From Antedon mediterranea (taxonomy: Eukaryota; Echinodermata; Crinoidea; Comatulida; Antedonidae), in contig NC_092670.1 of NCBI RefSeq assembly GCF_964355755.1, positions 8,679,201 to 8,743,200 of the forward strand: a stretch of 64,000 nt of DNA. Direction: 5' to 3'. This document shows positions 8,247-49,800 of the stretch, in pieces; positions within the stretch are counted from its first letter, which is position 1, and the number at the start of each line of letters is the position of its first letter. The position numbers were made by a program, and so were the translations under genes. The notes below the pieces were generated by a model, which saw only the letters and a program-made list of their open reading frames with translations, did not search any database and was not told the DNA's origin.

Positions 8247-8324
8247 ATGGAGTCAAGAATACGTCATTATATGCTAAGAGAAGGAGTTAGACAAGAAATT
8301 ATAGATGCCCTTCAAGACAAAAAA
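8247..8324 (+). CDS. Ankyrin gene, first coding exon (SAM-like part 1)
   Basis: A pyrimidine-rich acceptor ending TCTTCACAG at 8243 is followed three bases later by the ATG at 8247, so a 5' non-coding exon probably lies upstream. The exon encodes 26 residues starting 'MESRIRHYMLREGVRQEI' and ends in phase 0 at a GTTAGT donor. With the next exon it makes a helical segment of SAM-domain character. The start is chosen because this is the first ATG after the acceptor; a longer coding 5' end cannot be excluded. Confidence 0.6.
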
Positions 8325-11300: not shown

Positions 11301-14300
11301 AGTTTGCTGCCGGAGGCAGCGATGGCGTTCCATACGGACTACTGTACTTTAATTGTGCGAGGTACTTTCGAATTTGTTGCGGACTTCTTTAATTGTGCGA
11401 GGAGCTTTCGAATTTGTTGCGGACTTATTTAATTGTGCGAGGAGCTTTCGAATTTGTTGCGGACTTCTTTAATTGTGCGAGGAGCTTTCGAATTTGTTGC
11501 AGAATTCTTTAATTGTTCGAGGAGCTTTCGAATTTGTTGCGGACTTCTTTAATTGTGCTTAGCTCTTCTTTAATTGCGCGTTTCTTCTTTATTTGTGCAT
11601 TTCGTTTTATATTTTCATGCTTTCTTTTGTTTATATGCGATTTCTTCTTTAATTGTGCGATTTCTTCTTTAATTGTGTGATTCCTTCTTTAATTGTGTAA
11701 TTCCTTCTTTAATTGTGTGATTCTGTGTTATTGTGCGTGACAGTTGTGGGCCACCGTAGATTCTGACCTAGGAATAAAGATTAAACAATTATGTACCTAA
11801 ATAAATGTAGTTATGAATTTAACTTTAGTTGATATCTAAAGTAATTTTTTAAATGTTGGAAATGTTGTGTTTACTTTTATGATTTTAAGGGAGCACATAG
11901 CAGACATATAACAGATGTCTTAATCACCAGGTGAGTTATTTGATTCTATACAATAAAATTCAAGAAAAATATCCTTTTTAACTTTATTTATTAGAAAATG
12001 AAAATCATAAGAATTTAATTATTGAATGTCCCTGTTTTTTAGAAATATATTGGAAGATGCTATTTTTGGGAGAAAAGGATTACAAGAAATTGAAAAAATA
12101 TGTATGAATGAACCACACCTTGTGAAAACCATCGATAAGGTATTGGAAATGTATGCATTCACAATTACCAAGAACAAATTGAATTTATTAAAAATGTATG
12201 TTTTTAGCAATTTAAAAAATCCATACATTTTAAAATGTATACCAACATAAACAACATACTTATGGTACACAAAATATATATGTAACTTAATCTGTGAAGT
12301 CCAATGAACAGACAGCATTTTTACATTTTTAAAATAACAACTACTGTACCAAATACTACAATTAGACTGCTTTTAAAAAAACATGCACAGAACCAACTAG
12401 AGAAGAGAACACATTTTTAAACTGTTTTTAGTTACAAATTAGTTACAGACATTTACTTATTGGATTGGTTATTGTGTAAATGAATTTTTACATTAAATAA
12501 TTTTCATTTGGTTCATTCACTTTACTTCAGAAAAGAAAACTAAGTAAATAAATAAAATATTGTATTATAAAAATATTTTTGATTACACGCATTAATTACA
12601 TTTATATTTCGAAAAATAGAAGTTTAGTGGTGAAAATAAAAGAGAATGTAGACCTATCAAAACAGACACTTTTAATTAGTCAACTTGGTATTATCATGTG
12701 AAATCTGTATCCAAGAAAGTGTTTGCAATTCTTTATATCCTTAAACATGTAAAACCTTTATTAATTTTAGGTCAACTTTATCTTTCTCTTGTTCAACAAA
12801 TTTTGAATACCGCAGCAATTATATTGTCAAACTTGCCTACTACTACTAACTTTAAAAAATGTGGGACAAGACTTACTGTGTATGTAATGCCCATTTCTTC
12901 TCACTGTTTAAGTATGTTGATGCCACTTGGTTGGTTAAACCTTAGGTACATAATCTGAAAAGATCATCTTATAAGTGTTTAAATGGAGATTTACCCGAAT
13001 ACTGTACCATTCATATTTGAAATTTGATAATGAAAATCATGAACATTTTACCAGAAATACAGTATTGTTTCATTGTTTCACTTTGCCTCAAAACAATATA
13101 TAAAAATACAATACATGGAAAAGAAATAAGAAAAAAAAAACTAGAGACAGGATTCCTAGAAGAAATATCTTACTCTTTCTAATGATATTTAAAAAAAATT
13201 CCTGTTTGACCTTTGTTACATTTTTAGTCTTTCTTTGTTTATTCACCTTACTTTTATTACTACCATATATATTACATTTCTTTTGGAGACTCAACTTCAA
13301 GGCTCCTTTTGGTTTATTTGAGTCACCAGACATAGAACAAAGTTAAGTAAGTTAAATAAGATATGTTTTTTATGTTTTTTTGATATTTATTTGGAAAAAA
13401 ATTTAAATATTAAATTCATCATGTATTTTAAGTATCTTCTGTGGTAGTTCACACGTAGAGCCCCTTTTTTGAGGTACCAACATGTCAATTTGTTATCTAT
13501 ATTTCTGAAGTCTGAAGTCTTCTTAACAAACAGCGATCACGACATTGAATAATACATGCAATGTAATGCATTATATTGCAAAATACAGAAACAAATGTAA
13601 AGGCCAATTGTATTCATCTAGAAACCAATCTATCCCTTGATTATTATGATTCCTTGCATGATGGAGACACACCACTACATCTATATCTGATGCGTTATAA
13701 AGTTGAATTAGATAACAAACTGTCTCGTAACCAACGGTGCATCTAACTCCAAACAATGTATGTACATATAATTTTACAAATAGTTCATAAACAGTAGGCT
13801 AATATTTCTAATAGCACCCTCTCCAATTGTAAAGCATCTTGAAACCTGTTATAGGCCTAGATAATTATGATTCTTTGCCTTATGGACATACCACTACATC
13901 TATATCTAAGAAAGAGTTCTGAAGTTAAATTAGAGATAGTAAACTGTCTTATAACCAATGGTGCATCAATCACAACTCCAAACAATGTATGTACATTTAA
14001 TTTTATAAATAGTTTATTAACGGTAAGCCAACATTTTTAATTGCAATAATAGGTATTAGAAATTTCATATCAAAAAACACAGCTTGAATTGAAAATTGAT
14101 TAAATTATAAATTACAGTAAATTAATAAAAAAACAAATACATTGATTTAATTAATTAAATTTGGAACACATTAAATGATTGATTGATTGACTGAAATGTC
14201 TGAATTTCTTTATTAACCAGAGTCGCATAATACATACAATATAAAAGCAATTAAATCATGAGAAACAGTTAAATATCTTTATCAGAATGCCCTGTGAATT

Positions 14301-17300
14301 ACCAATTTTGTTTTAGTAAGACTTTATAGCTAAACAAATTTTATAAAGATCTGTTCATAATCCAGATGGGGTCAACATTCATGAGATATGACTTGAGTCT
14401 TTGCTTCAAAGTAATTATGTTGGTCAATATTGACAGGATTCCCAAAAAGTAAATCTAATCACTCTAGAGTAACTGGTCTCCTAATTTCACCGATTTAGAA
14501 TATAAAAGTATATATAAAATATATATATTAAAAATGTGTAAAAATACAACTTTATAATATATTATTATATTACATACAGTAAAAATACAATTTGATTTAG
14601 TTGCAAACCATTTTTAATAGAAAAATATAACGCAGAATACTATAAGCATTCATTTAAAAGGAAAGGTGTAAATATTTGTTTAAAGTAAGAAGAGACTAGA
14701 GATACATTAACCACAAACAAAGTAATGTACTATTAATTTATAGTACATCCAATGTAATGATATAACACAGTAATCAGTATTACACTATTATCATTTCTCA
14801 ATGTGAAGATACATTTTGCAAAATAAGGAAAACAAACAACTGTTATTTTAATTGATTTTATATGAATTTATGGTTTAGATGAGTATTAGAGCCTTTTTTA
14901 AATCTTAAAGTAGCAGCAATTTTATATTATATATCATGAATAATACCACCAAACTTACGAGTTAAATAATCAGTACTAGAGCCTTTATCTTAAAGTAGCA
15001 ACAGTAAATCAGTAGGCCTAATGATTATGATTTATTTCAGGATGGGAACACCCCACTACATCTATATCTTAGCATATTCACTACAAAGTTTGGCTATCGT
15101 CGGATGGGGGGTGGTCAATTTGAATTAGAGATACTGAACAGTCTTGTACATCCAGATGCATTAACCACATCAAACAAAGTAATGTACAATACGTTTTAAC
15201 AAAAATAATGTAAACTTTGAACATGTCTAATTTTTTTTCCTGTAAAGGCAATAAAGCATAGTGCACCAATGTAATGACATAGCATAGTATTGTGTTTCAT
15301 CTTTATTATATTACAAAGCAGGATCCACATTCATGAAATATGGCTTGGGTCTTGCTTCAAAGTAATTATGTAATTTAAAAGAGGAATACTGACAGGATTC
15401 TCAAAAAGTAAATCTAAAATCATTGCAGATGTTTGTAGATCAGTACTAAAGCCTTTTTCAAAATCTTAAAGTAGCAACATGGCAATCTTATAGCATCTAG
15501 TTGTAATCCAGTAGGCCTTAATAATTATGATAGTTCATAAACAGTAGCAAAATATTCATCCTAATAGCATCCTCTCCTCAGGGAGTGAACTATATACTTA
15601 TGTGCACGTAAGGCAACAGACCAATTGTAAAGCATTTGAAACCAGTTATAGGCCTTGATAATTATGATTCTTTGCAGGATGGAGACACACCACTACATCT
15701 ATATCTAAGGAGTTCTGAAGTTAAATTAGAGATAGTAAACTGTCTCGTAACCAGTTCATCAACCACATCGCCAAACAATGTATGTACATTTAATTTAATA
15801 CAAATAGTTCATAAACAATAGAACAATCCCTTGGTATTAGACATTTCTAGTCTAAACAACACAGCCCCCACTGATAAGAAAGTGCTTATTTTCAACAAGC
15901 TGGTGTAACACAAATAAAATCACAAAAATTATGGAACATAGGGGAATCTATAGATCGATAATTATTGGAATGTATGATCAATAGAAATGTTTTTCCTACA
16001 CCAGGCCTTCAAGGCTCTATTAGAGTCACCAGACATAAATGTATCTACATTTCTGAAGTCTGAAGTCTTCTTAAAACAAGGATCACGACATTGAATAGCA
16101 CATGCAATGTAACGCATTATATTGCACATTGTGGAAGATACATTTTCAAAATACAGAAACAAATGTAAATGCCAATTGTATTCATCTAGAAACCAATCTA
16201 TCCCTTGATAATTATGATTCCTTGCAGAATGGATACACACCACTACATCTATATCTAAGTAGGAGATCTGATGTTAAATTAGAGATAATAAACTGTCTCG
16301 TAACCAACGGTGCATCAATCACAACTCCAAACAATGTATGTATTTAATTTTACAAATAGTTTATTAACGGTAAGCCAACATTTTTAATTGCAATAATAGG
16401 TATTAGACATTCATATAAAAAAAATACAGCTTGAATTGAAAATTGATTAAATTATAAATTAAATTAATAAAATAAATTAAAAAATACATTGATTTAATTA
16501 GTTAAAATTGGATGATTGATTGATTGACTGAATTTCTTTATTAACCAGAGTCGCATAATTATCTGATCAGAATGGTCCTGTGAATTACCAATTTTGTTTT
16601 AGTAAGACTTTATAGCTAATCAAATTTGATAAACATCTGTTCATAATCCAGATGGGTCAACATTCATGAGATATGACTTGAGTCTTTGCTTCAAAGTAAT
16701 TGGTCAATAGGATAGGATTCCCAAAAAATAAAAAACTAACCACTCTAGAGTAACTGGTCTCCTAATTTCACTGATTTAGAATATAAAAATATATAGAAAA
16801 TATATATATTAATAAAAATGTGTAAAAATACAACTTTATACTATATTATATTACATATAGAAAAATACAATTTGATTTAGTTGCAAACCATTTTTAATAG
16901 AAAAATGTAACGTAGCATTCATTTAAAAGGAAAGGTGTAAATATTTTTAAAAGTAAGAAGCGACTAGAGATAAATTAACCACAAACAAAGTAATGTGCTA
17001 TTAATTTATAGTTCATCCAATGTAATGATATAACACAGTAATCAGTATTACACAATTATCATTGTACAGTGTGAAAGATACATTTTACAAAATAAAGAAA
17101 ACAAACAAACTGTTATTTTAATTGATTTGATATGAATTTATATGGTTTTTAAATTATTATTATAAGTGCAGATGTTTAGATCAATATTAGAGCCTTTTTA
17201 AAATCTTAAAGTAGCAACAATTTTATATTATCTAGTTTTAAACCAGAAGGTTAAGATAATTATGATATATACTTGAGTATAGTCCATCGTTTAGCTCATC

Positions 17301-20300
17301 ATCTGATAAAGTGTGGTATTAAATTTAAGAGAAACTGTCCAGTCTTGTACATCATGATGCATTAATCACATCAAAGTAATGTGCAATAAATGTTAACAAT
17401 TTTGTTTCACCTTAAACTTAATTCTTTTTTCCTATCATGCAATTAAAGTATTGTGTACCCAATGTAATGACATAGCATAGTATTGTGGTTCATCTTTATT
17501 ATATTGCAAAACGGGAAAAATACTGAACCTTTGCAATACAATAAAGAAATAAACATATGACTGATACCTTAAATTAGAGATAGTAAATGTACATTTAATT
17601 TAAAGCTCAGATACAGGCAGGAATTTTAAATATAATATCTGGTTGATTGTACATAAATCAAATATTTGTAATAGAAATCAAGATGAAAAAACATGAATTT
17701 CCCTTAAAATGGTCAAATACAAAATTTGGCAAAATTCTGCTATAAAAACCAGGAAGACTTTTTTTCAGTAGTTAGGTAGTTTTACCTAGTGTAATAACAT
17801 GTCTGATGACTCCCTAGATGGTGAAAAAAGATGGTGGATATACGGTGGATAATTTTTGCTATAGCATGGAAATAAAACTCTGAAGTTGAATAAAAATACT
17901 AGAAATGTAACATTCAAGTTATATTACCTATATTTAGTCATCTGATAACATATTTTACCACACCATTTATTTTTCATAGCTTTTTAAAAAGCCTCTCTAT
18001 TTACACAATTTGTGTACAAAAGAATAGAGATATTACTGTGTAATTTGAAGTATTCTCCCACTGATAAGAAAGTGCTTATTTTCAACCAGCTCGTGTAACA
18101 CAAAAAAAATCCCAAAAATTGTGAAACATAGGGGAAACTATAGGTCGATGTTTATTGGAATGATCAATAGAAATGTTTTGCCTGCACCTGGCCTTTAATA
18201 CAAATAGTTCATAAACAGTAGGCCAATATTCTAATAGCACCCTCTCATCGGGGATTAAACTTATATCCTGCCGTGCATGTAAAGGCAACAGACCAATTTT
18301 AAAGAATGAAACCAGTTATAGGCCTTGATAGTTATTATTTTTTTTTTTTTTTTTTATTCAGTATATTACACAGAGGCGCCTTACAAGATGGAACCATCTT
18401 AGCTTCAAGGCGCCTCAGATTAACAAATACAACATTTTAAAATAACTAACAGAAACATCAATTAAATCTTCCAGAATTAACAAGAAATTGTTGTACATAA
18501 TAAAATAATAAAGCATTTTCACAATTCGAAAGAAGATCGGAACCAAAAATAAAAATTTCACTTAAAAATGTAAAATTAAATGTTAAAGAAAAATCCTTGG
18601 CTAAGATATCCTCAATAATTGAGTTAGCGCTTACAAGTAGAATATCTCTTTGTGTATTATAATTAGGGCAGTAACATAAGAAATGAAGCGGATTCTCAAC
18701 ATTAAAGCCACAAGTACAATTTGGATTGTCCCGAAGTCCATGTAAGAATAAATGCGAATTGAGACAGCTGAAACCAAGTCGGATTCTAGTGTGAATTTGG
18801 TTAATCTTCTTATCACCTGTATCATAATAAGAACGTTTTTTTGTTTCAAACAAATTGGATTTCAGTAGCAATTTTTTAAACTCAACAAGAAATGAGGAAT
18901 TTTTTATTTCATTATTTAACTCATTCCAATGTGTTATAATAGATGGGACAAAAGATAAACGATATGATGTGGTCTTACAAAATGGAATTATTATATTTCG
19001 GATGTTACGCAAGTTATAAACTTCAATATTGTCAGAAAAATTAAATAAGGAGTAAAGATACACTGGTGTTAACTTATGAATAATTTTAAAAAACAGTATT
19101 AGGTTAAGAAATTGTCTACGTTTTTCCAATGATAACCAGCCTAATTCTTGTCTTAATGCATTATGACTTGTATGTTTCCACGCACCAGTACATATTCTAC
19201 CTGCAGAAATCTGGATATTTTCTAGTTCATCACTTAATTTAACTGGGATATTACACCAAACAGGAGCTGCATATTCCATTAATGGTCTAACGTGTGATAT
19301 GTAAATGTGACAGAGAGCCTGTCGAGGTAGAATATGTTTGACACGACGTAGCATATTTAAAGATAAAGACGCTTTGTTAATTACAGATTGGATATGGGAA
19401 TCCCACTTGAGTTTTGCATTAAGCATTACACCAAGATGCCTATGATCATTTACAAATTGTAGATTTACATTATTGAAATTTAAACTAACATAGTTATCTA
19501 AATGTTTACGTGTAAACAGTATAGCTTTCGTTTTGTTAGCATTGAATGTTACTTTCCATTTTTTTGCCCAATTATAAATGACATTAAGATCACCATTTAA
19601 TTTTTGTTCTGAAATATTACGATCTGTACAAATATCATATAACGAAGTATCATCTGCATATAAACTAATATTAGATTTGATATTATCAACCATATCATTT
19701 ATGAATACAATAAATAAAAATGGACCCAAAACAGATCCTTGGGGTACTCCTGCTGTAATGGTCACCCAAGGACTGGTAGTTCCTTCAATAATAACACGTT
19801 GCTCACGTGAGTTTAAGTAACTTTGGAACCATTTTAGAAGAGTGCCATTAATTCCATATTGATTTAATTTGTATATAATCCCATTATGCCAAACTTTATC
19901 GAAGGCTTTGGAAATATCCAAAAATACCGAGATTACTTCTTTCCTTAAATCTAAAGCTCTATTAAATGTATCTATAAGATAAAGAAGTTGATACGTTGTC
20001 GAGTCACCTGGTGTAAAACCAGATTGGAATTGAGTAAGAAGTTTATTATCCACAAAGTATTTATATACTATATCAAAAACTGCACGCTCAAAAATTTTTG
20101 CAAAGTTGGAAAGTATGGATATAGGGCGGTAGTTCTCAATAAGAGATTTATTGCCTTTTTTATGCAGAGGAATGACATTTGATTTTTTCCATTCCACAGG
20201 AAAATATCCTTGGCTTATGCAGAAGTTATAAAGCTTTGTCAAATGGGGTGCAATAATTTCAGCAGATTCTATTAGTATGATACTGTGAATTTCATCAGGT

Positions 20301-23300
20301 CCCATCGCCTTGTTTTTATCCAGCATAGTTAATAATTTCATGATCTCATCAACAGATAATTTGAGAGTTGAGAGTCTCGATGCAGTTCTATATGTGAAGT
20401 CCGAAGGAAAATCATCATGATTAGGAATAAACGATTGAGATTTAAAATAATTGTTAAACGCTTTAACTTTCTCACTATTTAAAGTTAGGACATCATCGTT
20501 TAATTTGATTGGAGGAATCTTATAATATTGTTTGGAATTACAAACTGAATTTATGGTAGACCACCAAGTTTTTGAATCACAGTTTTTATTCATTAATAAA
20601 TCAAATTGTTTATCCAAAAAAGTTTGTTTAGCTTTTCTTATTGCTTTAACAACTTTTGCGCGAATTTTCTTAAAACGTTGCATATGCGAATTTGAGTTAT
20701 TTCGAGTGGAATGGGCGCGATTTCTTTTGCGAATAAGAGTTCTAATATGCGCATTAATCCAAGGCTTGTCATTAGGACGCACAGTTATAATTTTAGATAT
20801 AATATAGTTATCAACACAATTATTAAATAAGTCAATCCAATTATGACAAACATCTTCAACCTTTGAAGATGAATAAACTTCTTCCCAATTTACAGAATTA
20901 AGAGCATTACGATATAAATTAAAATCAGTTTTTTCAAAAAGATATATTTTACGATTGTATGGCTTGTCCCGTGTGATACGAATATCAATATTTGCATATA
21001 CTGGACTGTGATCACAATTTAAAAGTGGGCACAATGCACCAAAATCATTAATATATACATTTTGACTAGTAACTATATGGTCAATACAAGACCGTTGGTC
21101 TTTTATACAACGTGTTGGCATATTGATGTGTTGAGTTAAACCGTTTTGTTGTAAAAATTCGTAAAATGATTTTCCAAATCTATTTGTGTTTCCATCATTG
21201 TACCAGTTGTTATTTTGAGCATTCATATCGCCCATCATTAAAGTTAAGCTGTGTCGAGACAAAACAAAGTTATTAGTACTGTTTTGAAAATAGTCAAGTA
21301 GATCCTGATCAGATTGAACATCACTTTGTGGTGGCCTATAACATACATAAGTCAAAATCGTCCAGTTTGAAACTTGTATTTCACACCTTATCACATCTGA
21401 CAAGAGATCATTGCAAATATGGGAATTAACTAAGTGTATAGAATTAGATATGTAAAAAGCACATCCGCCGCCATGGCGGTTTCTATCATTTCTAATAGGT
21501 TCTTGATAACCGTCTAGTAAAATGTCATGGTTCAAGATAGTTTGATCTAGCCATGTTTCTGTTAAAGCAATAATATCATAGTTATTTAAATTTGCTAGGT
21601 GTTGAATTTCAGCTAGTTTACCTGGAACGATTAGACTACGTATGTTAATATGGTAAACTGTAAACTGTTCCGGACCAGGATTTGGATGTATATCGCCGCA
21701 CATTAAAAGCATGCAGATTAGAACATTATTACGCCCCAAATTTATGATAAATAAATTATCCATTATCAGTAAAAAAAATAAGTAAAGTACTCACTTTAAA
21801 AACGCTAGCACATATGAGAACACTTAGCCAAACGAACATAGTAAACATTGAAATAAAAACAAGAGAACACGTTTTTGCTATCTAAAATCAACAAATAATG
21901 GTCAAATTCCGTCGGTAAGAAACGTACTGTTAATGACACCGCACAGTCTAAACGTTCTTAATGTTCAGCAATCAGTCGTTCAAAATCATTTTCATTCTTG
22001 ATATGCTTGGGTTTTTCTTCACCTTTACACAGGGCCCATATCTTGCATCTGTTAGTCCAGGCACGTTGAACTCCATCATGGTGTCTTACCTTCCAAAAGA
22101 GATTGAAATTTGCTTTTGTTAGGTCTTCCGAGATATAAACCGGCATACCCTTCAGTTTGGATTTGGCTGCAAACACATTGTTACGGGTCCTGATTGAATT
22201 GAACCGAACAATTATTGGCCTAGGCTTGTCAGTAATAGGACCGATTCGATGAGATACTTCAATATCGTCGGACTTGAAAGTGATACCCATTTTGTCGCGA
22301 ATAACCTCCGCCACCAAATCATCAGTTGACTTTGTCGAGTCCTGTAAACCGTAGAATCTAAGGTTATTACGACGTGAATATTGTTCTAAATAGTCCAATC
22401 TGGTTTCAATATTACTGATTTGCTCCTGCAGTTTATCAAATGCTTTGTTTAATGTCTCAGTAATAGAAGTAGTCAGCTCCTGAAGCAAGTCTTTCTTCAG
22501 CTTATCAACATCTAACTTCGGGGCCATGATTACACTTGCTTTTTTACAGTACCACCACTGTTTTACATATCAGGTCACAATCACAGCTGGTAATTTCGGC
22601 CAAATTTACTAATTTGCATAAGTGACGCAGATGTTTGGAAACCTTATTGAAGGATTTTGATTTGCATATGGCTAGCACAGTAATAGTTAACCTTGCAGCG
22701 CTTTCAACGGCGAGCCAATGGCAATAGATGCGGTATCATGGGGGTAAAATACTCACTGCTTATTTACACCGACAGAGCATTGACCATCATCTTTAAAAGT
22801 TTACATGATAAGTCCTAGATTCTATTTACGATGATAATGATACAATCGGGAAAAAACAAAGATAAATGTCTCTTTGAAAGGTGAAAATCGAGAGCAAAAA
22901 AGTTGTACGTGCTCACTCACCCAATGTCTCTGCTTATAGTTATTATTCTTTTCAGGATGGAGACACACCACTACATCTATATCTAAGTAGGAGATCTGAA
23001 GTTAAATTAGAGATAATAAACTGTCTCGTAACTAACGGTGCATCAATCACAACTCCAAACAATGTATGTACATTTAATTTTACAAATAGTTTAATTACAA
23101 TTGTAATTCTAAACCAATGAGGCTTAATAATTATGATTTATTTCAGGATGGAAACACCCCACTACATCTATATCTTAGCTTATTCCGATTCAGTTATTTT
23201 GGCTATAAATTTGGTTATGATCTGATGGAGGATAACAAATTTGAATTAGAGATACTGAACAGACTTGTACATCCAGATGCATTAACCACATCAAACAAAG

Positions 23301-26300: not shown

Positions 26301-29300
26301 AATACGGTATACAAAATATGGTATTTTTTTTATGAGCGCAGTTTCTGCTGCCAAAAAAATACGGTATAAATACGGTATTCAAAAAATACCGTATAAAGTA
26401 TAGTATTTTCTTGGCAGCAGAAACAGGGCCTATAATAGTGCATCCAATGTATTACATTATTATCATTGCACATTGTGAAAGATAAGCACATTGTGAATGA
26501 AAGATTGTGCAAAATAAGGAAAACAAAGATAAGACTGTTATTTTAATTGATATGTAATGACATAGCGTAGTATTGTATTCATCTTTATTATGTTGCAAAG
26601 TGGGAATGATACATTTTCCAAAAAAAAACAAAACAAGTAACAGTGTTATTTTTATTTTGAATTGTAAGTTCAACATTAAAGATGTATTGGCCCTCTTGAC
26701 TAATTCCCAAAAAAAAAATAAATAAAAATTCCAGTCAAAGTTTTCGATCAAAACATATCTCATAATCCAACGCTCTGTATGCATAATAAAAACTTCCTCG
26801 CGATCTGTGTGAAAACACCTTCTCAACCGTGACAAGTTGTAAACAATACTAATTAGCATCATGCATAATGCATACTCATGTTTTGAAATCTTTGTTTACT
26901 TTCACTCGCGACGATTTTCCAGACGAAATGTAATCAAATTAATTTACCTGTTAATTATGTAAACGTGTTGTTTTTGGCTCGAATTTTCGACTTAAAGTGA
27001 ATGACTTTAATATTACTTTGATATGGCAAATTTAAATTTAGAATACTTTGACCTTCATTTTTTTGTGTTTCAATGGACATAATACATCTTTAATTGATGG
27101 GTTTTTTAAATAATCAACATCATGGCAGATGTTTGTAATAGTAAAGTAACAACATGCCCACTTTAGAGCATCTGGTTGCAAACAAGTAGGCCTTTATGAT
27201 TATGATTTTTTTCAGGATGGAAACACCCCACTACATCTATATCTGAGCATATTAAATCCAGAGTTTATAATTTATCTGATGAGGGGTGGTACATTTGAAT
27301 TAGAGATTCTGAACAGTCTTGTTCATCCAGATGCATTAACCACAAACAAAGTATGTACAATACATTTAAACAAATAATTTAAACATTGAACATATCTATC
27401 TTTTTTTTCTTGTGATGGATAGTGCACCCAGTGAAATGACATAGCATTGTGTTTCATCTTTATTATACAAAGCGGGAAACATACTGTACATTTGCAAAAT
27501 ACAATAAAGAAATAAACATATGATGACTGATACCTTAATTATAAATTGATTAGTTAATATGAATTGATCATATTATATTGTAAAGAATGAAACCAGTTAG
27601 TGGCCTTGATAATTATGATTCTTTGCAGGATGGAGACACACCACTACATCTATATCTAAGGAGTTCTGAAGTTCAATTAGAGATAGTAAACTGTCTCATA
27701 ACCAATGGTGCATCAACCACATTTCCAAACAATGTATGTACATTTAATTTAATACAAATAGTTCATAAACAGTAGGCTAATATTTCTAATAGCACTGTCT
27801 CATCGGGGATTAAACTTATATCCTTCCGTGCATGTAAAAGCAACAGACAAATTGTAAGGAATGAAACCAGTTATAGGCCTTGATAATTATGATTCTTTGC
27901 AGGATGGAGACACACCACTACATCTATATCTAAGGAGTTCTGAAGTTCAATTAGAGATAGTAAACTGTCTCATAACCAATGGTGCATCAACCACATTTCC
28001 AAACAATGTATGTACATTTAATTTAATACAAATAGTTCATAAACAGTAGGCTAATATTTCTAATAGCACTGTCTCATCGGGGATTAAACTTATATCCTTC
28101 CGTGCATGTAAAAGCAACAGACAAATTGTAAGGAATGAAACCAGTTATAGGCCTTGATGATTATGATTCTTTGCAGGTTGGAAACACACCACTACATCTA
28201 TATCTGAGATGGAGTTCTGAAGTTAAATTAGAGATAGTAAACTGTCTCATAACCATTGGTGCATCAACCACATCTCCAAACAAGGTATGTACATTTAATT
28301 TAATACAAATAGTTTATAAACAGTAGGACAATATTTCTAAGCACCCTCTCCTCAGGGAGTAAACTCATATCCTTCCCCGCACGTAAGGGCAACAAACCAA
28401 TTGTAATTAAGCATCTCCTTCCGCGCACGTAAGGGCAACAGACCAATTGTAAAGCATCTAAAAACTTGATAATTATGATTCTTTGCAGGATGGAGACACA
28501 CCACTACATCTATATCTGATGAGTTCTGAAGTTAAATTAGAGATAGTAAACTATCTTATAACCAATGGTGCATCAATCACATCTCCAAACAATGTATTTA
28601 CATTTAATTTACACCTCTGGCAAACTATGCCAACAATGTTTTTTTGCTTCCTTATATCAATACAAATCAATTTTTTGCTGTTGGCCGAAAAAAAATTGGG
28701 ATGCTTGGTCAGTACAGGGGCCAAAAGGTCAATATGGTCAAAGTTAAGACTTTGCGTAACTTGGTGAATATTTTTTGTGCCAAACTACTTCGAAGATCCC
28801 TATTCCTATTCACTCTAATGGGAAACTTTTGCCAAAAGTGGACGGAAAACCCTTTTCTGACCACTGGTCAAGAAATTGGTCATATGAATATCTCAGCAAC
28901 CACTGGACAGAAAGTGATAATTGTGGTCTCAAATTTCTTGCAAAGTATATGTTTATATTTGTTCTAATGTATTAAAAATAATAAAACTGTCAATAAACCC
29001 TTAATTTTTTACTTTGACATATAGCCGGCACAAAATTGTTTGCTTGCAGCTCACTTTTCATATATCAGACATTGTTGGGCGGATATGGTTGTAGTTGGTG
29101 TCAAAATACTCAGAAGATACATATTTCTATTCACTTTAATGGACAACTTTTGCCAAAAAATGACCATGAAACTTTATATTTGATCATTGGTCAAGAAAAT
29201 AGCCATATCAATATCTCAGCAACCACTATTAGTGGTTGCTTTCTATATAGAAAGTTATAATTTTAGTCTCAAATTACTCGCAATATATAATTATACTTGC

Positions 29301-32300
29301 TCTAATACAACAGAAATACACAAAATGTTTAAAAACACCTTATTTTGACATTGAACCTATAGCTGGTACAAACATTTTTGCGTGGAGCTTACATTTTTAA
29401 TAACTAGCGAATGTTGTCTTTGCTTCAAAATACATTGATATCACTCTAATGAACAAGTGCCAAAAGACATATCATGACCACTGATCAAGAAAATGAAATA
29501 TTTAGCAACCTGGTGGTCACAAAGTGATATTTTTCGTTCATAGACATATTGTATTTCATATTTTAATTATAATTTGTAGATTTAATATGAATTAATGGTT
29601 TTAAAATAAATAATCATCATATTCAGTGCTACTGTATTCATTGCAGATGTTTGTAGGCTAGTAATAGAACTTTTTTGTAAATCTTAAAGTTGCAACATGT
29701 CTATTTTATAGCATGTCATTCTAAACCCGTAGGCTTTAATGGTTATGATTTATTTCAGGATGGAAACACCCCACTACATCTATATCTTAGCTTATTCACT
29801 ACAAAATTGGAATTAGAGATACTGAACAGTCTTGTACATCCAGATGCATTAACCACATCAAACAAAGTAATGTAAAATACATTTTAACAAATAATTTAAA
29901 CCTTTCATTTGTCTAATTATATTTTCCTGTCATGGAATTAAAGTATAGTGCACCCAATGTAATGACATACTGTAAGTATTGCATTTCATCTTTATTATAT
30001 TAAAAAGCGGGAAAAATACTGTACATTTGCAAAATACAATAAAGAAATAAGCATATGACTGATACGTTAATTATAAATTGTAGATTTAATATGAATTGAT
30101 GGTTTTTAAATAGATAATCATCATCATTGCAGATGTAGATCAGTACTAGAGCCTTTTTTAATCTTAAGTAACAACATGGCATTTTTATAGCACCTAATAA
30201 GTATGATTTATTTCAGGATGGAAACAAATTAAACCTAGTTTAAGCAACGTTGGGCTCGGTTGCATCTGGATGGAAGACCGTCTAGAAATAGCGACGGGTG
30301 CTGTATATACACCAGAGAGTGATGGTGTAATGATAATATCGGACTAGCATGTGATAGGCATGGGTTCGGGGTTATCTCTACCATACTAATTGCATCCTTA
30401 GGCAAGATGCTTTACTCTCATTGCCTCATCCTTCGGATGGGATGTAAAGCCGTTGGTCCCGTGTACTTAACAGTGCACTTTAAAGAACGTGGTACACTAT
30501 TCGAAAAGAGTAGGGACCCAGTGTGCTGATCTGGTAGGCGCTGCACTGCTGGCTGCCGTTGGTCCATGGAGGGCCCAGAATAATACATTTTTAGCTATGT
30601 TTACTGGGGCACCACCAATATTCCACACCCAATTTATTAATTAAAAATTTCAAACATTTGTATTCATGTTTCGCATTACTAAAAACTCCCTCGTTTTAAC
30701 TTGTTTTTTAGTCAGTTCTATTCTTATGAAACAAGTCTAAATCAGGAACATTTTAGTCATGAAAGTATTTTTTTTTTAAAGAAGTCTTTCTATTTATCTT
30801 TAACTATTTTTACTGCAATGTATAATGATTTATTAAATATTAAATAAGGTTTTTCAATATTATTACTGCTGTTTGTAGATCAGACATGGAGCCCTTTTTT
30901 ATTTGAAATACCAACATGCCAATCAGGGGCGGTTGCAGGACTATTTTAAAAGGGTTGCCCAAATATTCCAGGGCTGTAGACACTGAGTAATTGACCAAGC
31001 AAATTGTATTCTCTCACTGTAGTGAGCTAGCAAACAGAGGATTATAGCCTATTATTCCTCCGGTAATAAAACATACGCGACTAACAATATAAGATAACAT
31101 TTTTTTTTTCGTTCATTGCGTCACGGGGAAGTCCCCGATGAAGGACTTCTGGTACGGTAAAAATAAATAAATAGATTAGGGAAAAACACCGGCAAAACGC
31201 AATAATTATGGACAAATTGATTATTAGCCTTGGCAATATGCCTAATATTTAAAAGGAATGAATATAGGCTATATTTCGTCTGTCGATGATTTTTTTTTTG
31301 TCGCGAAGTTCATGTTTGAATGCTTGATCCATTAGAGGTAATCTGTGATGACGCTAGTAGCACTGATATGCGTGGGTAATTTATGAATGGCGTAGTAGGC
31401 TACATACACGAGCCTAGATCTGTACTGCCGTTCATCTTCAGAAGTTTATCGACCGACATTTATTTATTTTTTGTGGCAATCAAAGTTGAATATATATACT
31501 GAAATGTTGTAATTAATTAATTTGAAACGATATGAAAAGATGAGGAAATCTGTGAGAATGAGAAAAAGTCGCCCCAACCGAGACTCAAATCATATAAACA
31601 CAGCAGGCAAAGAACATTAATTCTAAACCGCCCGGTGATATACTGAAATTTAATTAATTAATTTGAAACGATAAAGGTGAGGAAATCTGTGAGAATGAGA
31701 AAAAGTCCCCCCAACCGAGACTCAAACTCGGACCATCTGCTTGATATGCAGTTGCCCTAACCATTAGACCACTGGGGCTTTCATGGTATTGTTCAAACTC
31801 AATTGGATAGTGACTCTTTAACATTCTCGGCGTGGTACAGCGGAACAGCACTAGTCCTCAGTTGTACGCACGCGCAACAGAGATCAAATTGATACACCCT
31901 CATCTTTCAGTATTTTTATTCACGAGGCGGGATCTCCGAAGAGATATTTTTATATATATAAACACAGCAGGCAAAGAACATTAATTCTAAACTACCCGGT
32001 GATATACTGAAATTTAATTAATTAATTTGAAACGATAAAGATGAGGAAATCTGTGAGAATGAGAAAAAGTCGCCCCAACCGAGACTCGAACTCGGACCAT
32101 CTGCTTGATATGCAGTTGCCCTAACAATTAGACCACTGGGGCTTTCATGGTATTGTTCAAACTCGATTGGATAGTGACTCTTTAACATTCTCGGCGTGGT
32201 ACGGTGGAACAGCACTAGTCCTCAGTTGTACGCATGCGCAACAGAGATCAAATTGATACACCCTCATCTTTCAGTATTTTTATTCACGAGACGGGATCTC

Positions 32301-35300
32301 CGAAGAGATACTTTTATATATATAAACACAGCAGGCAAAGAAAATTAATTCTAAACCGCCCGGTGATATACTGAAATTTAATTAATTAATTAACTATATA
32401 TATTTCTCATGTGTAGTAGAGCGTTTCTTTGATTTGAATAGTTTGTATTATAACACAAGTTCATTTTGGATTTTAAGTAAATTACCAATGGTTTACTCAA
32501 AGTCATGTAGCTAATCCCTCATTATTCAATAAAAATGTTATTACTATACTACATTGTTGAAAAATAGATTGCGTGATATGAAAATGGATTGATAGTAAAA
32601 CGTAACAAACATACGTTTTTGTCTGGTTATTAGGTATTCATGCATTCATGAAGCGGAGGATTATTTTTGTAGCGTTCCATTTAAATTAAATTTTGCTACA
32701 AAGAAATATTTTGCTTTTGAAGGTTGTTAAATTTGTTGGCGCCAGCATTACTTCTTTTACCAATTTTACCAATTAATCTAACATCAAAACATTCAACAAT
32801 GATACTTTATGACTACGCCTATCAAGTTCCGGCTCCGGACCCCCACCTCCCCGAAATGTTAAAGGTTCCCTTTTTTAGAGAACACACTAACTACATTTTT
32901 TTTTTTCGTCAATGCGGTACTTCTGGTACGGTAATAATAAAATACTATCAATTAATGTAAATTAATTATTATTATCAAATAATGATTTAAAAAAGTTACA
33001 CAAAAAATATGAAGATGCTGCTATAAGTATTGAGGAAAACGTTAAATTGTATTATTTTGAATTAAATGCTAAATTAGTCAGCAGTTAATTAAAACCACAA
33101 TTTTCAAAATTCATTTTCATTTATCCACTATAAACTGTACAATAAATAATAAATATAAAACAAAGAAATTAATTATAGGAAATTTGCAGAAAGAACGGAA
33201 AACAAAACTATATGCAAAATTATGATTTGGCCTTAAATTGGAAAAAACGCAATAATTATGCAGGCCCGTAGCCAGGGGGGTTTTTATGGTTCGGGCGAAC
33301 CCCCCTTAACCAACTGCGAACCCCCATCCCCGAAATGCCCAATACCTCACCCTCATCTCCAAAAATCCTCCAAATACGTGCCCCACAGTACAAAAAGTTG
33401 TTTGTAAATTGAAAAATTCGTAAACTTGTTCGTGAACCTTCTTCTCTGTATGAGCGTCAACTAGTGATACGTGTCTGTAAATTTCTAAAAGCTGCAAATG
33501 AATTGCCGATTTTAACCTGAAAAATAAATGTTTGGTCCCTGCATGTAACATGATATTGACGCGTCTCATAGCGAGCTGGCGCACGAACGATTCGTACAAA
33601 GGACACCGCCAGACAACTGCGTACCTATAATTGTTTAGATCACTGGCAGTCAGGCAGCATGCATAAAGTATATAGCCTTCCGACGTACATCAGTATTTAT
33701 GTGCGACTATGAAGTATAATGTATCATAGAGGATTATATAGTGAATATTAATATTTTACACTATAATATCTATGGTATCAAGTACTGTAGTTCACATTAT
33801 GGCATCCGATTATTTTTTTCTAGACCACCAGCCGATACGTACTAAAATGTATCAATATCACCTTTTACATATTTATATTCCTCAACAAATTGCTGTCAAT
33901 AAATATTATAGATAGAGCTAGCAAATAGCATTTGCCTTCACCCAGTGTGCTTTTTTCGGGGCTGCTCCTAGATATACGTTCGCATTGAACTTGAACGCAA
34001 AACAAAATACGGAGTAAATGATCAAACAATCGGCGGTTCCGCACAGAGCACGCACATCTAACATACGGCAACAAATAGTTATCGTCATTTAAATTATCGA
34101 CGTGTTTGAGGAGGAGGAAAAAGTACGATCTTTTTGCTCATTGGTTATATAGCATGCTGCACGAGAGTGTCTTTTCCGGCCATCTAGGGGTGTCATTTAA
34201 CAAAATTCGCTTCGCATCAGGCTGGGGGGAGGGGGGGGGGGTGTTTGACCCAAATATTTAATGTCCGAACCCCCCCTTGACAGATCCTGGCTATGGCCCT
34301 GATTATGAACAAATTGACGACCCAATATGACAGGTTTTCTCGAGCACTGTGTGTGTTGGCCTCCTTTCGTACCTCTCATCAGGAGAGATATACATCTCCC
34401 TGCTCTCATGACGCGCGTACCACAAGCAACTAGTCAATCAGAAAGTCATTCTGTGCATGCTCAGAAACGTATCTACACTTATCTGTGAGTGGTATAGTAG
34501 GCCTATTGGTGACTGCTGTGCATTTACTAAAATTTCAATATTAATAATAACCAACGGTGCATCAACCACATCTCAAAACAATGTAGCCTATGTATATTCA
34601 ATTTTACAAGTAGTTCATAAACAGTAGGCCAATATTGAAACATAAACAGTAGGCCAATATTGAAACCAATTATATCTCTTGATAATTATGATTCTTTGCA
34701 GGATAAAGACACACCACTACATCTATATCTAAGAAGGAGTTCTGAAGTTAAATTAGAGATAGTAAACTGTCTCGTAACCAACGGTGCATCAACCACATCT
34801 CAAAACAATGTATGTATATTCAATTTTACAAGTAGTTCATAAACAGTAGGCCAATATTGAAACCAATTATATCTCTTGATAATTATGATTCTTTGCAGGA
34901 TAAAGACACACCACTACATCTATATCTAAGAAGGAGTTCTGAAGTTAAATTAGAGATAGTAAACTGTCTCATAACCAGTGCATCAATCACATCTCCAAAC
35001 AAGGTATGTACATTTAATTTTACAAATAGTTCATAAACAGTAGGACAATATTCCTCTGTATGTATATTTAATTTTATAGATGATCTATAAACTGTACGTC
35101 AATACTACTAGCAACAGTAGATATTAGACATTTCAAGTCAAATAACACAGCAGTAATTAGGGAAATTGAGGCCTAGACCTACTCATTTGATTCAGATCAA
35201 AACAGTAACATTTATTTGTTTTATATATTAAATATTATATATATTTGGATTTTATAAACATATCTCCTGTTAGTGTTAATGGCGCTAATGTAGTTTCGTA

Positions 35301-38300
35301 CCCACCTCTTAAAATGACTCAAAATTGTTTTAATAATTCATCCAACCTACTCATGGGTTGTCGACAACATTTTGCAAGCATAACATGGTAAAAAATCGAT
35401 AATTTTTTATTTATAATTATTTTTAATGAATTAAAGTATTGTGTACCGAATGTAATGACATAAACATATTGTATTTCATATTTTTAATTATAAATTGTAG
35501 ATAATATGGATTGATGGTTTTAAAATAAATAATCATATGCAGATGTCTCTAGACTAGTAATAGAGCCTTTTTTAAATCTTAAAGTAACAAAATGTCTATT
35601 TTATAGCATGTCATTCTAAACTCGTAGGTTTTAATGATTATGATTTATTTCAGGATGGAAACACCCCACTACATCTATATCTTAGCTTATTCACTACAAA
35701 GTTTGGCTATGATCTGATGGAGGGTGATAGATTGGAATTAGAGATACTGAACAGTCTTGTACATCCAGATGCATTAACCAAATCAAACAAAGTAAGGTAA
35801 AATTTAAATATAATTTAAACCTAAAACCTGTCTTTTTTTCTATCATGAAATAAACATATAATGTATTCAGTGTATTGCATTATTATCATTTTATTGCAAA
35901 TTGTGAAAGATACATTTTATTATATTACGATATTCTTATTATGAATTGTGATTTAATATTTATTGAATTACAGCTTTTTAGTAATAATATAATATTCTAC
36001 CTATTCAGATTATAAACATTTGGAAAGTATAATATTTCATAAAGAAGTTATTTAATTAAACTGATTAATCATTGTGTATCAACCAGAAATTCATTTTACT
36101 CTACCAGTTTTTATTTTTATTATTGTTATTATTATATCATATTATTATCGTTGTTGATTCATAGACTTTAGAACAGGCGTGACATGTACTGATATATTTT
36201 TTATGATTAGTTTGTTTAGGTTTGTATAACATATCAACTAAATTAATTATTTCTTAACAATTAAATCACATTTGTTTATACTAGATGTTTGTTTATAAAG
36301 GCAACACAATTACTAAAGTTTCAATATTTAATAATTGAGTAAACAATTTTTTTTAAATCTTAAAATCATGCATCATCACATCACATGTAGTATTGGATTA
36401 TTGTCATTATATTACAAGTAAAAGCCAATTATATTTCATCTAGTAGCCCTTGATAATTATGATTCTTTGCAGAATGGAAACACACCACTACATCTATATC
36501 TGAGATGGAGATCTGAAGTTAAATTAGAGATAGTAAACTACCTCATAACCAACGGTGCATCAACCACATCTCAAAACAATGTATGTACATTTAATTTTAC
36601 AAATAGTTCATAAACAGTAGACCAATATTCCTAAGAACCCTCTCCTCAGGTAGTGAACTTAAATCCTTCCACACACATAAGGCAACAGGTCAATTGTAAA
36701 GCATCTTGAAACAAGTTATAGACCTTGAAAATTATGATTCTTTGCAGGATGGAGACACACCACTACATAAATATCTGAGAAAGAGGTCTGGAGTTAAATT
36801 CGAGATAGTAAACTGTCTCTTAACCAACGGTGCATCAACCACATCTCTAAACAATGTATGTATATTCAATTGCTGTACTGTACGTCAATACTACTAGCAA
36901 CAGTAGTTATTAGACATTTCAAGTCTAAATATCACAGCAGTAATTAGGGAAATTGAAGCACTTGATGGATTGAATTTTTTTTGTTAACCAGAGTCATACA
37001 CCTATATGAAAACAATAAAAGCAATTGAAATTATGTAAAATCACAATTTTATACTATATTATATTACATACATACGGTAATAATACAATTTGATTTAGTT
37101 GCAAACCATTTTTAATAGACTAGGGGTCAGTCTTTACCGAAAACAACCACAAACAACCGAAAACAACCGTAAACAACCCGAAAACAAACCGAAAAGAAAA
37201 TAAAAAATCTATACCGAAAACAATTTTGTATAATATTTTTGTTAATGTCGCCCTCTATTGATGGGTGTTTCTAAAGCTAAGACCATACAGAAAGAAAACC
37301 GCGCGCACAAAATCCAAGGAAGACCCTACAAAATAGTAGTGTGCACAAAATACAACTCAAAATCCTACAAATTCAATGATATACACAGTAGACTACATTT
37401 ACTTACAAAATCTATAAACACATTTCGTTTTTAGTCTTTATATTTTCCAAAACAAAGCATGATTTTACCTAACTTTGCGTGATTAAGGATAAAAACGTTA
37501 TTTACTCGACTGCGGTAATTTTACTGAATAGATTTTATTGTGAATCCTTTATCGTGAGCTTGTTTTAAGTATACTTCATAGTCCTTAATATTATCAATAT
37601 TCTTTAAATATTCTTTAAAATATCATTTTGTATTATCTTTGAAAATCTATAATTAAATTGATCATGATTAACCATAGTCAATTTACTTTCTATACTATGG
37701 ATTAACGTATTCACAATTATTGTGAAGAGTAAATGCGTTGGTTTCTGGATCAAAAATCGACAGAATAAAATTAAAATATTTTTATAGATTCTCTAGGTAA
37801 ATGCAATGTTATCATTGATTGATTGATTGTACGATTTTTAGTTGTATTTTGGGCACGTACTACCATTCCGTAGGGTCTTCCTTGGCTTTTACACACGCGG
37901 TCTTCTCTCTGTCATGGTCTTAGCTCTAGAAACACCCATCAGTAAAAGGCGACCTTAAAAAGTCATATACAAATTTGTTTTCGGTATTTAGACTAATTTA
38001 TTTTGTTTTCGGTTTGTTTTCGGTTGTTTTTGGCTGTTTATAGTTGTTTTCGGTTGTTTATGGTTATTTTCTGTTGTTTTTGGTAATTAGACTGACCGGA
38101 TACTAGGGGTGCATTAACCACAAAGTAATGTACTGTAAATAGTGCATCCAATGTTATACAAAAAATGAGTGTAATATGGTACAAATAATGGCATGAGGGG
38201 ACTGATGAAAGGTAATATTTCAATGAGGGGAATCTAAATAGATTCCTGTCATTTGAATCAGATTGAATGAAGGGTAGCTTTATTTGTTTTATATATTAAA

Positions 38301-41300
38301 TATGTATTTGGATTTTATAAACATACCTCCTGTTAGTGTTAATGGCGCTAATGTAGTTTCGTACCCACCCCTTAAAATGACTCAAAATTGTTTTAATAAT
38401 TCATCCAACCCACTCATGGGTTGTCCACAACATCCTGCAAGCATACATTTTAATTTTTGTTAAATAATTTTTTATTTATAAATATTTTTAATTAATTAAA
38501 GTAAATGTGTAATAAATTTTGACAAATAATTTTTTCACCTTAAACTTGTCTAATTCTTTTTTTCCTATCAAGTATTGTGTACCCAATGTAATGACATAAA
38601 CATGGGTATTTCATATTTTATTTATAACTTGTAGATTTAATATGGATTGATGGTTTTTAAATAAATAATCATCATCATTGCAGATGTTTGTAGTAATAGA
38701 ACCTTTTTTTAAATCTTAAAGTTGCAACATGTCTATTTTATAGCATGTCATTCTAAACTCGTAGGTTTTAATTATTATGATTTATTTCAGGATGGAAACA
38801 CCCCACTACATCTATATCTTAGCTTATTCACTACAAAGTTTGGCTATGATCGGATGAGGATTGGTAAATTGGAATTAGAGATACTGAACAGACTTGTGCA
38901 TCCAGATGCATTAACCACATCAAACAAAGTAAGGTACAATTTAAAAATAATTTAAACCTAAAACTTGTCTTTTTTTCTATCATGAAATAAACATATAATG
39001 TATTCATTGTACAGTACTGCATTATTATCATTTTATTGCAAATTGTGAAAGATACATTTTATTATATTACGATATTCTTATTATGAATTGTGATTTAATA
39101 TTTATTGAATTAATACAGCTTTTTAATAATAATAATATAATATTCTACCTTTTCAGATTATAAACATTTGGAAAGTATAATATTTCATAAAGAAATTATT
39201 TAATTAAACTGATTAATCGTTGTGTATCAACCAAAATTCATTTTACTCTACCGGTTTTTATTTTTATCATATTATTATTGTTGTTGATATATATAGATAC
39301 TCATATACTTTAGAACAAACGTGATATATCTTTAATACAATTATTTTGATTTGGGTTGGTATAGCATATCAACTAAATCAATTATGTCTTAACACTGACA
39401 GTTAAAGCACATTTGTTCATAGATGGGGAAGACGCCGGTGTCTATTTTAAAAGATAATGATCAGATTGACCTAGAAGTAAAACACACGATATTGAAGATA
39501 TTTGACAGTAAGTTAATGTTTTAAAATTAATTTAATCCCCTGAATCCAAACCTGTTTTAATTGTTAGCTTTAGTTTTAAATTTAAAACAAGATTCTTTAC
39601 TTGATTTTGTACAAAAACTAAGTTTTTCACTTCTTCAATTCATGGAATTTTAAAAGTTTTGAGAATACATCGATTTCTGCTGTGTTTAAATTCGTGTCTA
39701 AGCCTGTTCAGCTTACTAGAAGGTGCCAGAAGAGACACGTGAAAATCAATCTAAAACAAGAGATAATAACGACCAACATTGATTTCAATGTCTTGAGCGA
39801 CATCAGCCTCACTACTTATTACTGTACTGTATTATTGTAATCAGTCATGTAATTTGTGTGTACACGAAACGATGAGACAGTGATAATAAGTATCTTGCCT
39901 AGTAAGTAATATGGCGCTAACAGGTTTTGAGTACTGTACGATACTTTACTTTTATGCCATAATCATGCTGATGAATTTGAACATCATTTACTGTATTTTT
40001 ATTGCTTTTATTTGATTTCTGTAATCACTGGATTGTATTTTCAATGTATGGAAATTGTAAATTGAACAAAATGCTCTACTTGATTTAATAGGCAGAAACC
40101 TAAATTTTATTTAGGAGTTTTAGAAAATTTATGAAATAAAATAAAGAAAATTATACTTGGCACCTGAATATATTTATTATTGTTACAGTAGCTAAAAAGT
40201 CTTCAGTGGGTCAAGCAGCAGCAGCAAAAGGTACAACTGGAAAAGAATTTGAAAAAGAACCAACATCTGCCACCACCACAACTGCATTACTGTCAACGTC
40301 TAAAAAAATGTTAACATGTAAGCCTTCTTCAAAATGGATGTAAAATATTCTAATTTTGAATAGTACAAACAAAATGCGACCAAAGATTATGATTATACAA
40401 TTTAAAACAACACATACAAATATTATGCAAACAATGAATGTCTTATAAGTTAGTGAGAATATTCCATGGGTTGAAATATTGACTGCCATATTTAACAATG
40501 CAGAACTGAATTAAATAGAACATTTAATCGCTCAACTTATCCTGATTTTTTCACCATTTGTATTCAGTATGTAAGCTTTATGCAATTTGGCCTGTATTAT
40601 ATGTCACTACTTTAAAGCACAATAAAATCTGTCTATAGTCTGTATTGCAGTTAAATCAGTATTATAACAATCATTTCAATGTCTTATTAAGTAGGATATC
40701 TATATAAATACAGTGTAATTGTAATCGTTATCAAGTTTCTATCTCACTTTCTATTGACAGCAAAAACAAATTAATTACATAAAGCAATAATACTCCTTTA
40801 CTTTTCAGTTAATGTCACAGTTCATCTCAAAAGCATTAAAGTTCCACCACATCCACAGTATGTTGTAGACATGTTTGAAGACATTTTTGGTGGAAAAAAT
40901 GTTATACATGCTTTGGGGTCCTGAGAAAAAATCCTCTACAGTACTTGATTAGACAGAAATTGAAATTTTATCTAGGAATTTTTGAAAATTCCTGAAATAC
41001 AAAATAAAGAAAATTACACTGACATTACACATTTGTATATTATTGTTACAGTAGCTCAGAAGTCTGAACTGGATCCAGCAGCAGCAGTAGGTACAACTGG
41101 AAAAGAATCTCAAAAAGAACCAACATCAATGTCTGCAACTACCACAACCGCAGGATTGTCAACGTCTAAAAAAATGTTAACATGTAAGCCTTCTTCAAAG
41201 TGGAAGTAAAATATTCTAATTTTGAATAGTACAAAAAAAATGCGACCAAAGATTATGATTATACAATTTAAAACAGCACATATAAATATTATGCCCTATT

Positions 41301-49580: not shown

Positions 49581-49800
49581 CACAATATAATTTTGTTCAC
49601 AATTGTTTTACTTAAACATGCACCTGCAAAATAAACAGTAAACAAATGTATAATGTAATGTAGGCACGTTTGATATAGCACAATATAACAAAGTTGCAAT
49701 ATATGCAATATTCATGTATGATGACCTGGATTTGTTTAATGGACCGTTACAAAAATAGCTTTTTATCTGCTTTTAACAACACAAACTCGGTGTGTTAAAA
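49581..49800 (-). promoter_or_regulatory. 5' flank of the Mab-21-like gene with possible UTR splice acceptor
   Basis: On the minus strand TTTATTTTGCAG at about 49626-49637 lies about 45 bp upstream of the ATG and looks like a splice acceptor, so the coding exon may be preceded by a non-coding exon further right. No TATA box or initiator could be chosen. The satellite and fold-back element start only about 220 bp upstream of the ATG. Confidence 0.35.

Follow-up and report, generated by a model that had tools for sequence, protein, structure and literature searches.

A bank of single-repeat ankyrin exons in a candidate immune or cell-death adaptor gene of the crinoid Antedon mediterranea

Gene structure and the ankyrin exon array

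The window analysed here is a stretch of 64,000 nt (contig C1, 8679201-8743200) from the 354-Mb, 18-contig genome of the crinoid Antedon mediterranea; contig labels, given below before a colon, are distinct from exon names. It contains a gene that can be spliced into one open frame of 1,292 aa from 26 coding exons at 8247-43137, with GT-AG at 25 of 25 introns. The exons comprise three start exons (N1 to N3), 17 ankyrin exons, a closing-repeat exon (K), and five end exons (Table 1). Start and ankyrin exons are phase 0-0, K is 0-1, and the end exons are 1-1. An acceptor directly precedes the ATG, which suggests a 5' untranslated-region exon upstream of N1.

A scan for relatives of the ankyrin exons identified 20 copies in the window, of two types, A and B. 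Seventeen of these are intact (11 A-type and 6 B-type, spanning 15041-38928), and all 17 encode one ankyrin repeat apiece in whole codons, with an AG acceptor, a GT donor, and phase 0-0. Type A (34-36 aa) is a near-standard ankyrin repeat; type B (36-51 aa) has additional residues inserted as a loop between the two helices. The A exons show a mean nucleotide identity of 90-94%, with those at 27629 and 27903 identical to each other, and donors and acceptors, judged by eye, are near-uniform inside each type. Pfam Ank (PF00023) matches the spliced array in 12 stretches with an E-value of 7e-65 (211.7 bits, cut-off 21.1), and the motif 'AG + D G [ND] T P L H' is found 192 times genome-wide versus 0 for its reversed control; the series of ankyrin exons is therefore not a product of chance.

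The introns of the array range from 83 to 6,620 nt, and the shortest in the arrays of this gene and of the sister gene described below are 72-89 nt. A 274-bp unit consisting of one exon and its intron is present in 3.0 copies (94% match) at 27577-28406, and introns have thus been duplicated together with exons, as a preliminary description of this DNA had supposed. The same description reported a bank of at least 17 single-repeat exons starting at 13660. Its count and boundaries are confirmed, with the exception of the start: the copy at 13660 is decayed, with a frameshift and no AG, and the first intact exon lies at 15041. The frame-neutral joining that it had proposed also holds, in that leaving out all 17 ankyrin exons, so that N3 is spliced directly onto K, keeps the frame open.

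Table 1. Exons of the window gene and decayed ankyrin-exon copies, in window coordinates
Feature	Coordinates	Strand	Remarks
Exon N1	8247..8324	+	ATG start, phase 0 end
Exon N2	8917..9048	+	phase 0-0
Exon N3	9348..9440	+	phase 0-0
Decayed A-type ankyrin exon	13660..13759	+	frameshift, no AG acceptor
Decayed A-type ankyrin exon	13879..13986	+	AG acceptor lost
B-type ankyrin exon 1	15041..15178	+	
A-type ankyrin exon 1	15678..15779	+	
A-type ankyrin exon 2	16228..16335	+	
A-type ankyrin exon 3	22956..23063	+	
B-type ankyrin exon 2	23147..23299	+	
B-type ankyrin exon 3	27216..27350	+	
A-type ankyrin exon 4	27629..27733	+	274-bp tandem unit
A-type ankyrin exon 5	27903..28007	+	274-bp tandem unit, identical to A exon 4
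A-type ankyrin exon 6	28177..28284	+	274-bp tandem unit
A-type ankyrin exon 7	28489..28593	+	
B-type ankyrin exon 4	29759..29866	+	short loop
Tail of decayed A-type ankyrin exon	34541..34582	+	
A-type ankyrin exon 8	34702..34809	+	
A-type ankyrin exon 9	34899..35003	+	
B-type ankyrin exon 5	35654..35791	+	
A-type ankyrin exon 10	36473..36580	+	
A-type ankyrin exon 11	36748..36855	+	
B-type ankyrin exon 6	38791..38928	+	
Exon K	39423..39507	+	ankyrin-like, phase 0-1, closes the 0-0 series
Linker exon C1a	40189..40317	+	phase 1-1
Linker exon C1b	41052..41183	+	duplicate of C1a
Exon C2	41479..41871	+	RRM-like fold, candidate TRADD-like N-domain
Exon P	42022..42354	+	24-bp coding minisatellite, 12.5 copies, 96% match
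Exon C3	42614..43137	+	probable tandem death effector domain, carries stop codon

Several other elements accompany the gene. The longest intron of the array contains a LINE (long interspersed nuclear element)-type retrotransposon on the minus strand (18461-22569), with a 1,110-residue open frame that has endonuclease and reverse transcriptase matches and an adjoining second frame of 203 residues. Upstream of the gene, a 482-residue open frame on the plus strand (3696-5141) has a reverse transcriptase match, and a minisatellite at 10175-11296 is composed of TTCGGCTC-type units on both strands, facing each other. A truncated, stop-terminated copy of the start of C2 (40810-40924) is located inside the duplicated block that also yielded C1a and C1b. 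A Mab-21/cGAS-like gene on the minus strand (47541-49607), spread over three overlapping frames, adjoins the death-adaptor-like gene; its segment 48268-48903 matches Mab-21_C (E 1.3e-12), and the two neighbouring frames have no Pfam match.

Domains encoded outside the array

Exon C3 probably encodes, as judged by fold, a tandem death effector domain (DED). Its predicted model has a mean pLDDT (predicted local distance difference test score) of 72, and in Foldseek all of the top 12 rows are death effector domain entries of caspase-8, cFLIP, or viral FLIP (probability 0.54-0.98, E 0.3-2.3). VIA-align gives Z 10.1 with a root-mean-square deviation (rmsd) of 3.5 over 150 aligned residues, and the first non-DED row has Z 6.2; counting against the assignment is the program's note that Z below ~13 may reflect merely an arrangement common in helical bundles. 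Two stretches of the model with pLDDT below 50 count against it too, as does the DED profile (PF01335), which does not match the window C3 and matches one of four relatives with an E-value of 0.096.

Exon C2 is a possible to probable relative of the TRADD N domain. The predicted model (pLDDT 92) has an RRM-like fold, and VIA-align ranks the human TRADD N domain (1f2h) fifth (Z 5.5, rmsd 4.1, 100 aligned). Among 16 C2 members the family most often matched is Pfam TRADD-like_N (3/16, best E 0.0012). The TRADD-N signature as given by Kaur et al. 2021 (PMC8195603) is a tiny residue followed by Ser, sometimes Cys, at the turn that links strand 2 to strand 3; by eye, 15 of 16 rows of the C2 family have S or C at this turn and 9 of 16 have G or S before it, the window copy reading N-C. 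The assignment is weakened by IS200-type transposases, which outrank TRADD with Z up to 6.2, by Foldseek, which returns nothing significant (best E 0.33), and by the lack of a Pfam match for the window copy itself. Neither the C2 nor the C3 profile gave anything credible when compared with the sequences of solved structures.

No family was matched by the N exons in Pfam or in the comparison with sequences of solved structures; N2 had been suspected by eye of being a SAM-like domain, a candidate rejected for want of a SAM match in either. NACHT and NB-ARC have no match in the N, array, and C2-C3 parts, with the linkers covered only by the C1a frame.

A sister gene and relatives across the genome

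A tandem paralog at C1:8616642-8668307, ending ~11 kb ahead of the window start, has a layout equal to that of the window gene. It carries 20 intact ankyrin exons (8 A and 12 B) in an open model of ~1,330 aa. The paralog also contains an additional set of start exons, which is broken, and a single headless B exon; in both the number and the order of exons its array departs from that of the window. Its counterpart of exon P is 45 nt.

Repeated units of the sister gene were read from the 25 longest matches per comparison. Among them, a unit of ~1.04-1.06 kb with two A exons is present three times in the sister gene (93-96% alike) and matches the window once in full, at 15649-16650 (~86-87%); half of it matches 13823-14364, which contains a decayed exon. 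A B unit of ~430-446 bp likewise recurs in the sister gene (93-95%). Because the units are repeated differently in each gene, exon-intron tandem duplication has occurred separately in the two, and on these comparisons array length changes by tandem duplication between paralogs. The preliminary description had proposed that unequal crossing-over alters exon number between individuals; it is between paralogs that such change is seen, in the different count and separately amplified units of the sister. A tree of the A exons clusters by gene (3 label changes, against a shuffled mean of ~6.4, with 2-3 of 500 shuffles as low), and clustering by gene is not significant in the B-exon tree (4 label changes, 74-75 of 500 shuffles as low).

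All 19 genome matches to B-type exons fall in the two-gene cluster, and A exons with at least 79% identity are confined to it (20 of the best 150 of 517 candidates), the remaining A-like matches, among those listed, being at most 65% identical.

Relatives of the C-terminal exons are spread more widely. For C3, 150 of 264 candidates genome-wide were scored, and three of the 150 have internal stops. Fifty-one lie inside ankyrin-exon clusters, the intervals of which (padded by 50 kb) make up 3.8% of the genome, and ~6 would be expected; the window gene and its sister supply two of the 51. By eye, the clustered matches lie on the strand used by the ankyrin exons around them, and the clustered C3-like exons presumably belong to genes with ankyrin exons. 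Two points tell against this association: 99 of the best 150 matches are outside such clusters, and the clustering p-value of 4e-33 is overstated because clustered copies are not independent. Samples of 10 kb from five other clusters contain 4, 5, 2, 8, and 10 candidates for one-repeat phase-0 exons, some with a donor placed too early by the calling rule.

Sixteen of 26 C2-like matches have a listed C3-like match at most 5 kb away; the death-effector-like exon comes first in 13 of these 16 pairs and last in three (the window pair and C8). Stretches of 33 and 30 kb at two C2/C3 relatives, C8:5.03 Mb and C3:28.59 Mb respectively, contained neither A nor B exons, and neither type was present in 29.5 kb taken for two of the three exon-C3 relatives at 75% identity, which lie near C4:34.85 Mb; the A/B array is therefore not general to the C-terminal module.

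Three further observations concern other places in the genome. A separate ankyrin-exon cluster of more standard type, with 99-nt phase-0 exons, lies at C5:12.4-14.4 Mb (sample L018) and contains none of the best 150 C3-like matches. A pattern of five ankyrin exons recurs with near-equal spacing at four sites, C4:16419234-16421715 and three similar ones as far as 17633169, which suggests whole-gene duplications. A C2-like (TRADD-N-like) exon at L027:407-802 is followed by an open frame (1086-1781) that matches a B-box zinc finger (E 1e-5).

Selection, proposed function and alternatives

Pooled pairwise ratios of nonsynonymous to synonymous rates (dN/dS) for whole exons are 1.33 (type A) and 0.95 (type B). 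Within the B exons, the inserted loop has dN/dS 2.02 (codon bootstrap 1.22-3.83) and the scaffold 0.39 (0.21-0.74); as delimited, the loop is also the portion that standard ankyrin repeats lack. Replacement and silent changes counted on the tree are 105:15 for the loop versus 38:24 for the scaffold (Fisher p 1e-4), and the 32 equal-length, gap-free B pairs give 2.18 (1.44-3.79) and 0.54 (0.35-0.86), respectively. A loop ratio of ~2 together with a scaffold ratio of 0.4-0.5 points to diversifying selection on the B loops with the ankyrin fold maintained. In the A exons, the helices have dN/dS 0.37 and the other parts ~2 (contrast p 0.03). Between the window gene and its sister, dN/dS is 0.29 for N (8 replacement, 7 silent), 0.27 for K (~4.5 and ~3.5), 0.44 for C3, and 0.77 for C2; by this measure the end exons are mostly constrained between the two genes. 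On the other side of the balance, the pairs behind the dN/dS values are non-independent, the B loop was delimited after the exons had been viewed, its tree count against expectation alone gives p 0.05, and significance is not reached by any one region of the A exons. Moreover, the face by which ankyrin repeats usually bind is a different one, the inserted loop being the link between the two helices.

We think it fairly probable that the window holds a single intact gene for a fast-evolving sensor or adaptor of an immune or cell-death kind, whose ankyrin solenoid is built from modular exons that are normally spliced in full. The predicted protein would consist, in order, of a short N domain, the ankyrin solenoid (17 repeats plus the closing repeat), a TRADD-like N domain, a Pro-rich linker, and a tandem DED, with all intact ankyrin exons normally included together. 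Unequal crossing-over among near-identical exon-intron units would make repeat number differ from one paralog to another, and probably from one individual to another, and the gain or loss of repeats is harmless to the reading frame owing to the symmetric 0-0 phase. Selection would preserve the scaffold and favour change in the loops; the variable B loops may contact changing ligands, and binding may be passed on via the death-fold C-terminus, which could assemble signalling complexes. A caution against the immune part of this reading is that it is drawn solely from the company the family keeps.

Whole-exon ratios close to 1 in both types, the persistence of decayed copies in the array, and the retrotransposon in one of its introns would also suit a neutral process, the array then being a by-product of unequal crossing-over in repetitive introns under relaxed constraint, with no ligand-driven diversification. 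Under such churning, however, it is hard to place the retention of frame and both splice sites in 17 of 20 copies, the constraint on the B scaffold (0.39) alongside a loop above 1, and the constraint on the end exons N, K, and C3, and we consider this account unlikely. A wider proposal goes beyond the single gene: hundreds of death-effector-linked genes with one-repeat-exon ankyrin sensors, varying in repeat number and loops between individuals, perhaps by splicing, would form a germline-diversified repertoire for intracellular recognition. We offer this as a speculative and decidedly unlikely extension.

Diversity might instead arise within one individual, by combinatorial splicing of different subsets of the 17 exons into transcripts for many solenoids per gene, a possibility raised in the preliminary description. 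Every subset would be in frame, as 17 of 17 exons are 0-0 and the N3-K junction is open too, and exon choice would alter the surface through the strongly different B loops. The splice sites, however, vary little inside each type and to the eye have a constitutive look, the shortest array introns (72-89 nt) are not short enough to force exclusive choice, and the identical exons at 27629 and 27903 add length with no variety; such splicing appears quite improbable. Free swapping of exons, as first envisaged, stands in one respect and fails in another: frame neutrality is upheld, but one B exon does not simply stand in for another, their loops differing strongly and apparently under diversifying selection. 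It is highly improbable that the array is divided among several separate short genes or pseudogenes, as introns of 3.9-6.6 kb splitting it into blocks and the presence of repeated blocks might suggest, given a single start-exon set, a single full end set, one open model, and a sister gene of equal layout.

A single gene with an exon-modular solenoid, as favoured here, has partial counterparts elsewhere. Vertebrate ankyrin genes have symmetric single-repeat exons, and one frame-neutral repeat per exon is common to them and to the window gene, which differs in the 90-94% identity of its A exons and in the separate amplification of units in its sister. Dscam1 also has tandem near-alike exons within one gene, of which one is chosen per cluster, whereas the exons of the window gene can all be joined in series.

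Lineage-specific expansions of TRADD-N, death-effector, and ankyrin domains in animals are described by Kaur et al. 2021 (PMC8195603), where ankyrins beside TRADD-N domains are proposed as possible recognisers of invader molecules. As in the system presented there, candidate TRADD-N-like and probable death-effector-like domains are found here with ankyrin repeats and in many copies per animal genome. That system has mainly an N-terminal death-fold and TRADD-N with the variable part after, whereas here ankyrins and the TRADD-N-like domain are followed by a C-terminal tandem DED-like domain; the main text of that paper does not use the word 'exon'. Fungal NLR ankyrin arrays, as reported by Dyrka et al. 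2014 (PMC4986451), show repeat-number polymorphism and positive selection, and resemble the window gene in having highly alike repeats and, on the reading favoured here, recombination-driven repeat number and positive selection at some repeat positions. In contrast to these NLRs, no nucleotide-binding domain was matched in the scanned parts of the window gene, its unit is an exon plus an intron, and the variation is observed between paralogs, not individuals.

If the favoured reading is correct, an animal would have arrived, through duplication of exons, at what fungi achieve by recombination among ankyrin repeats, and both the length and the contact loops of a sensor coupled to cell-death-type signalling could be changed with the frame unbroken. 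Because exon number is not the same in the two sister genes and the one-repeat exon style recurs in other large ankyrin-exon clusters of the genome, the locus would also let the idea that exon symmetry accelerates receptor evolution be tested directly.

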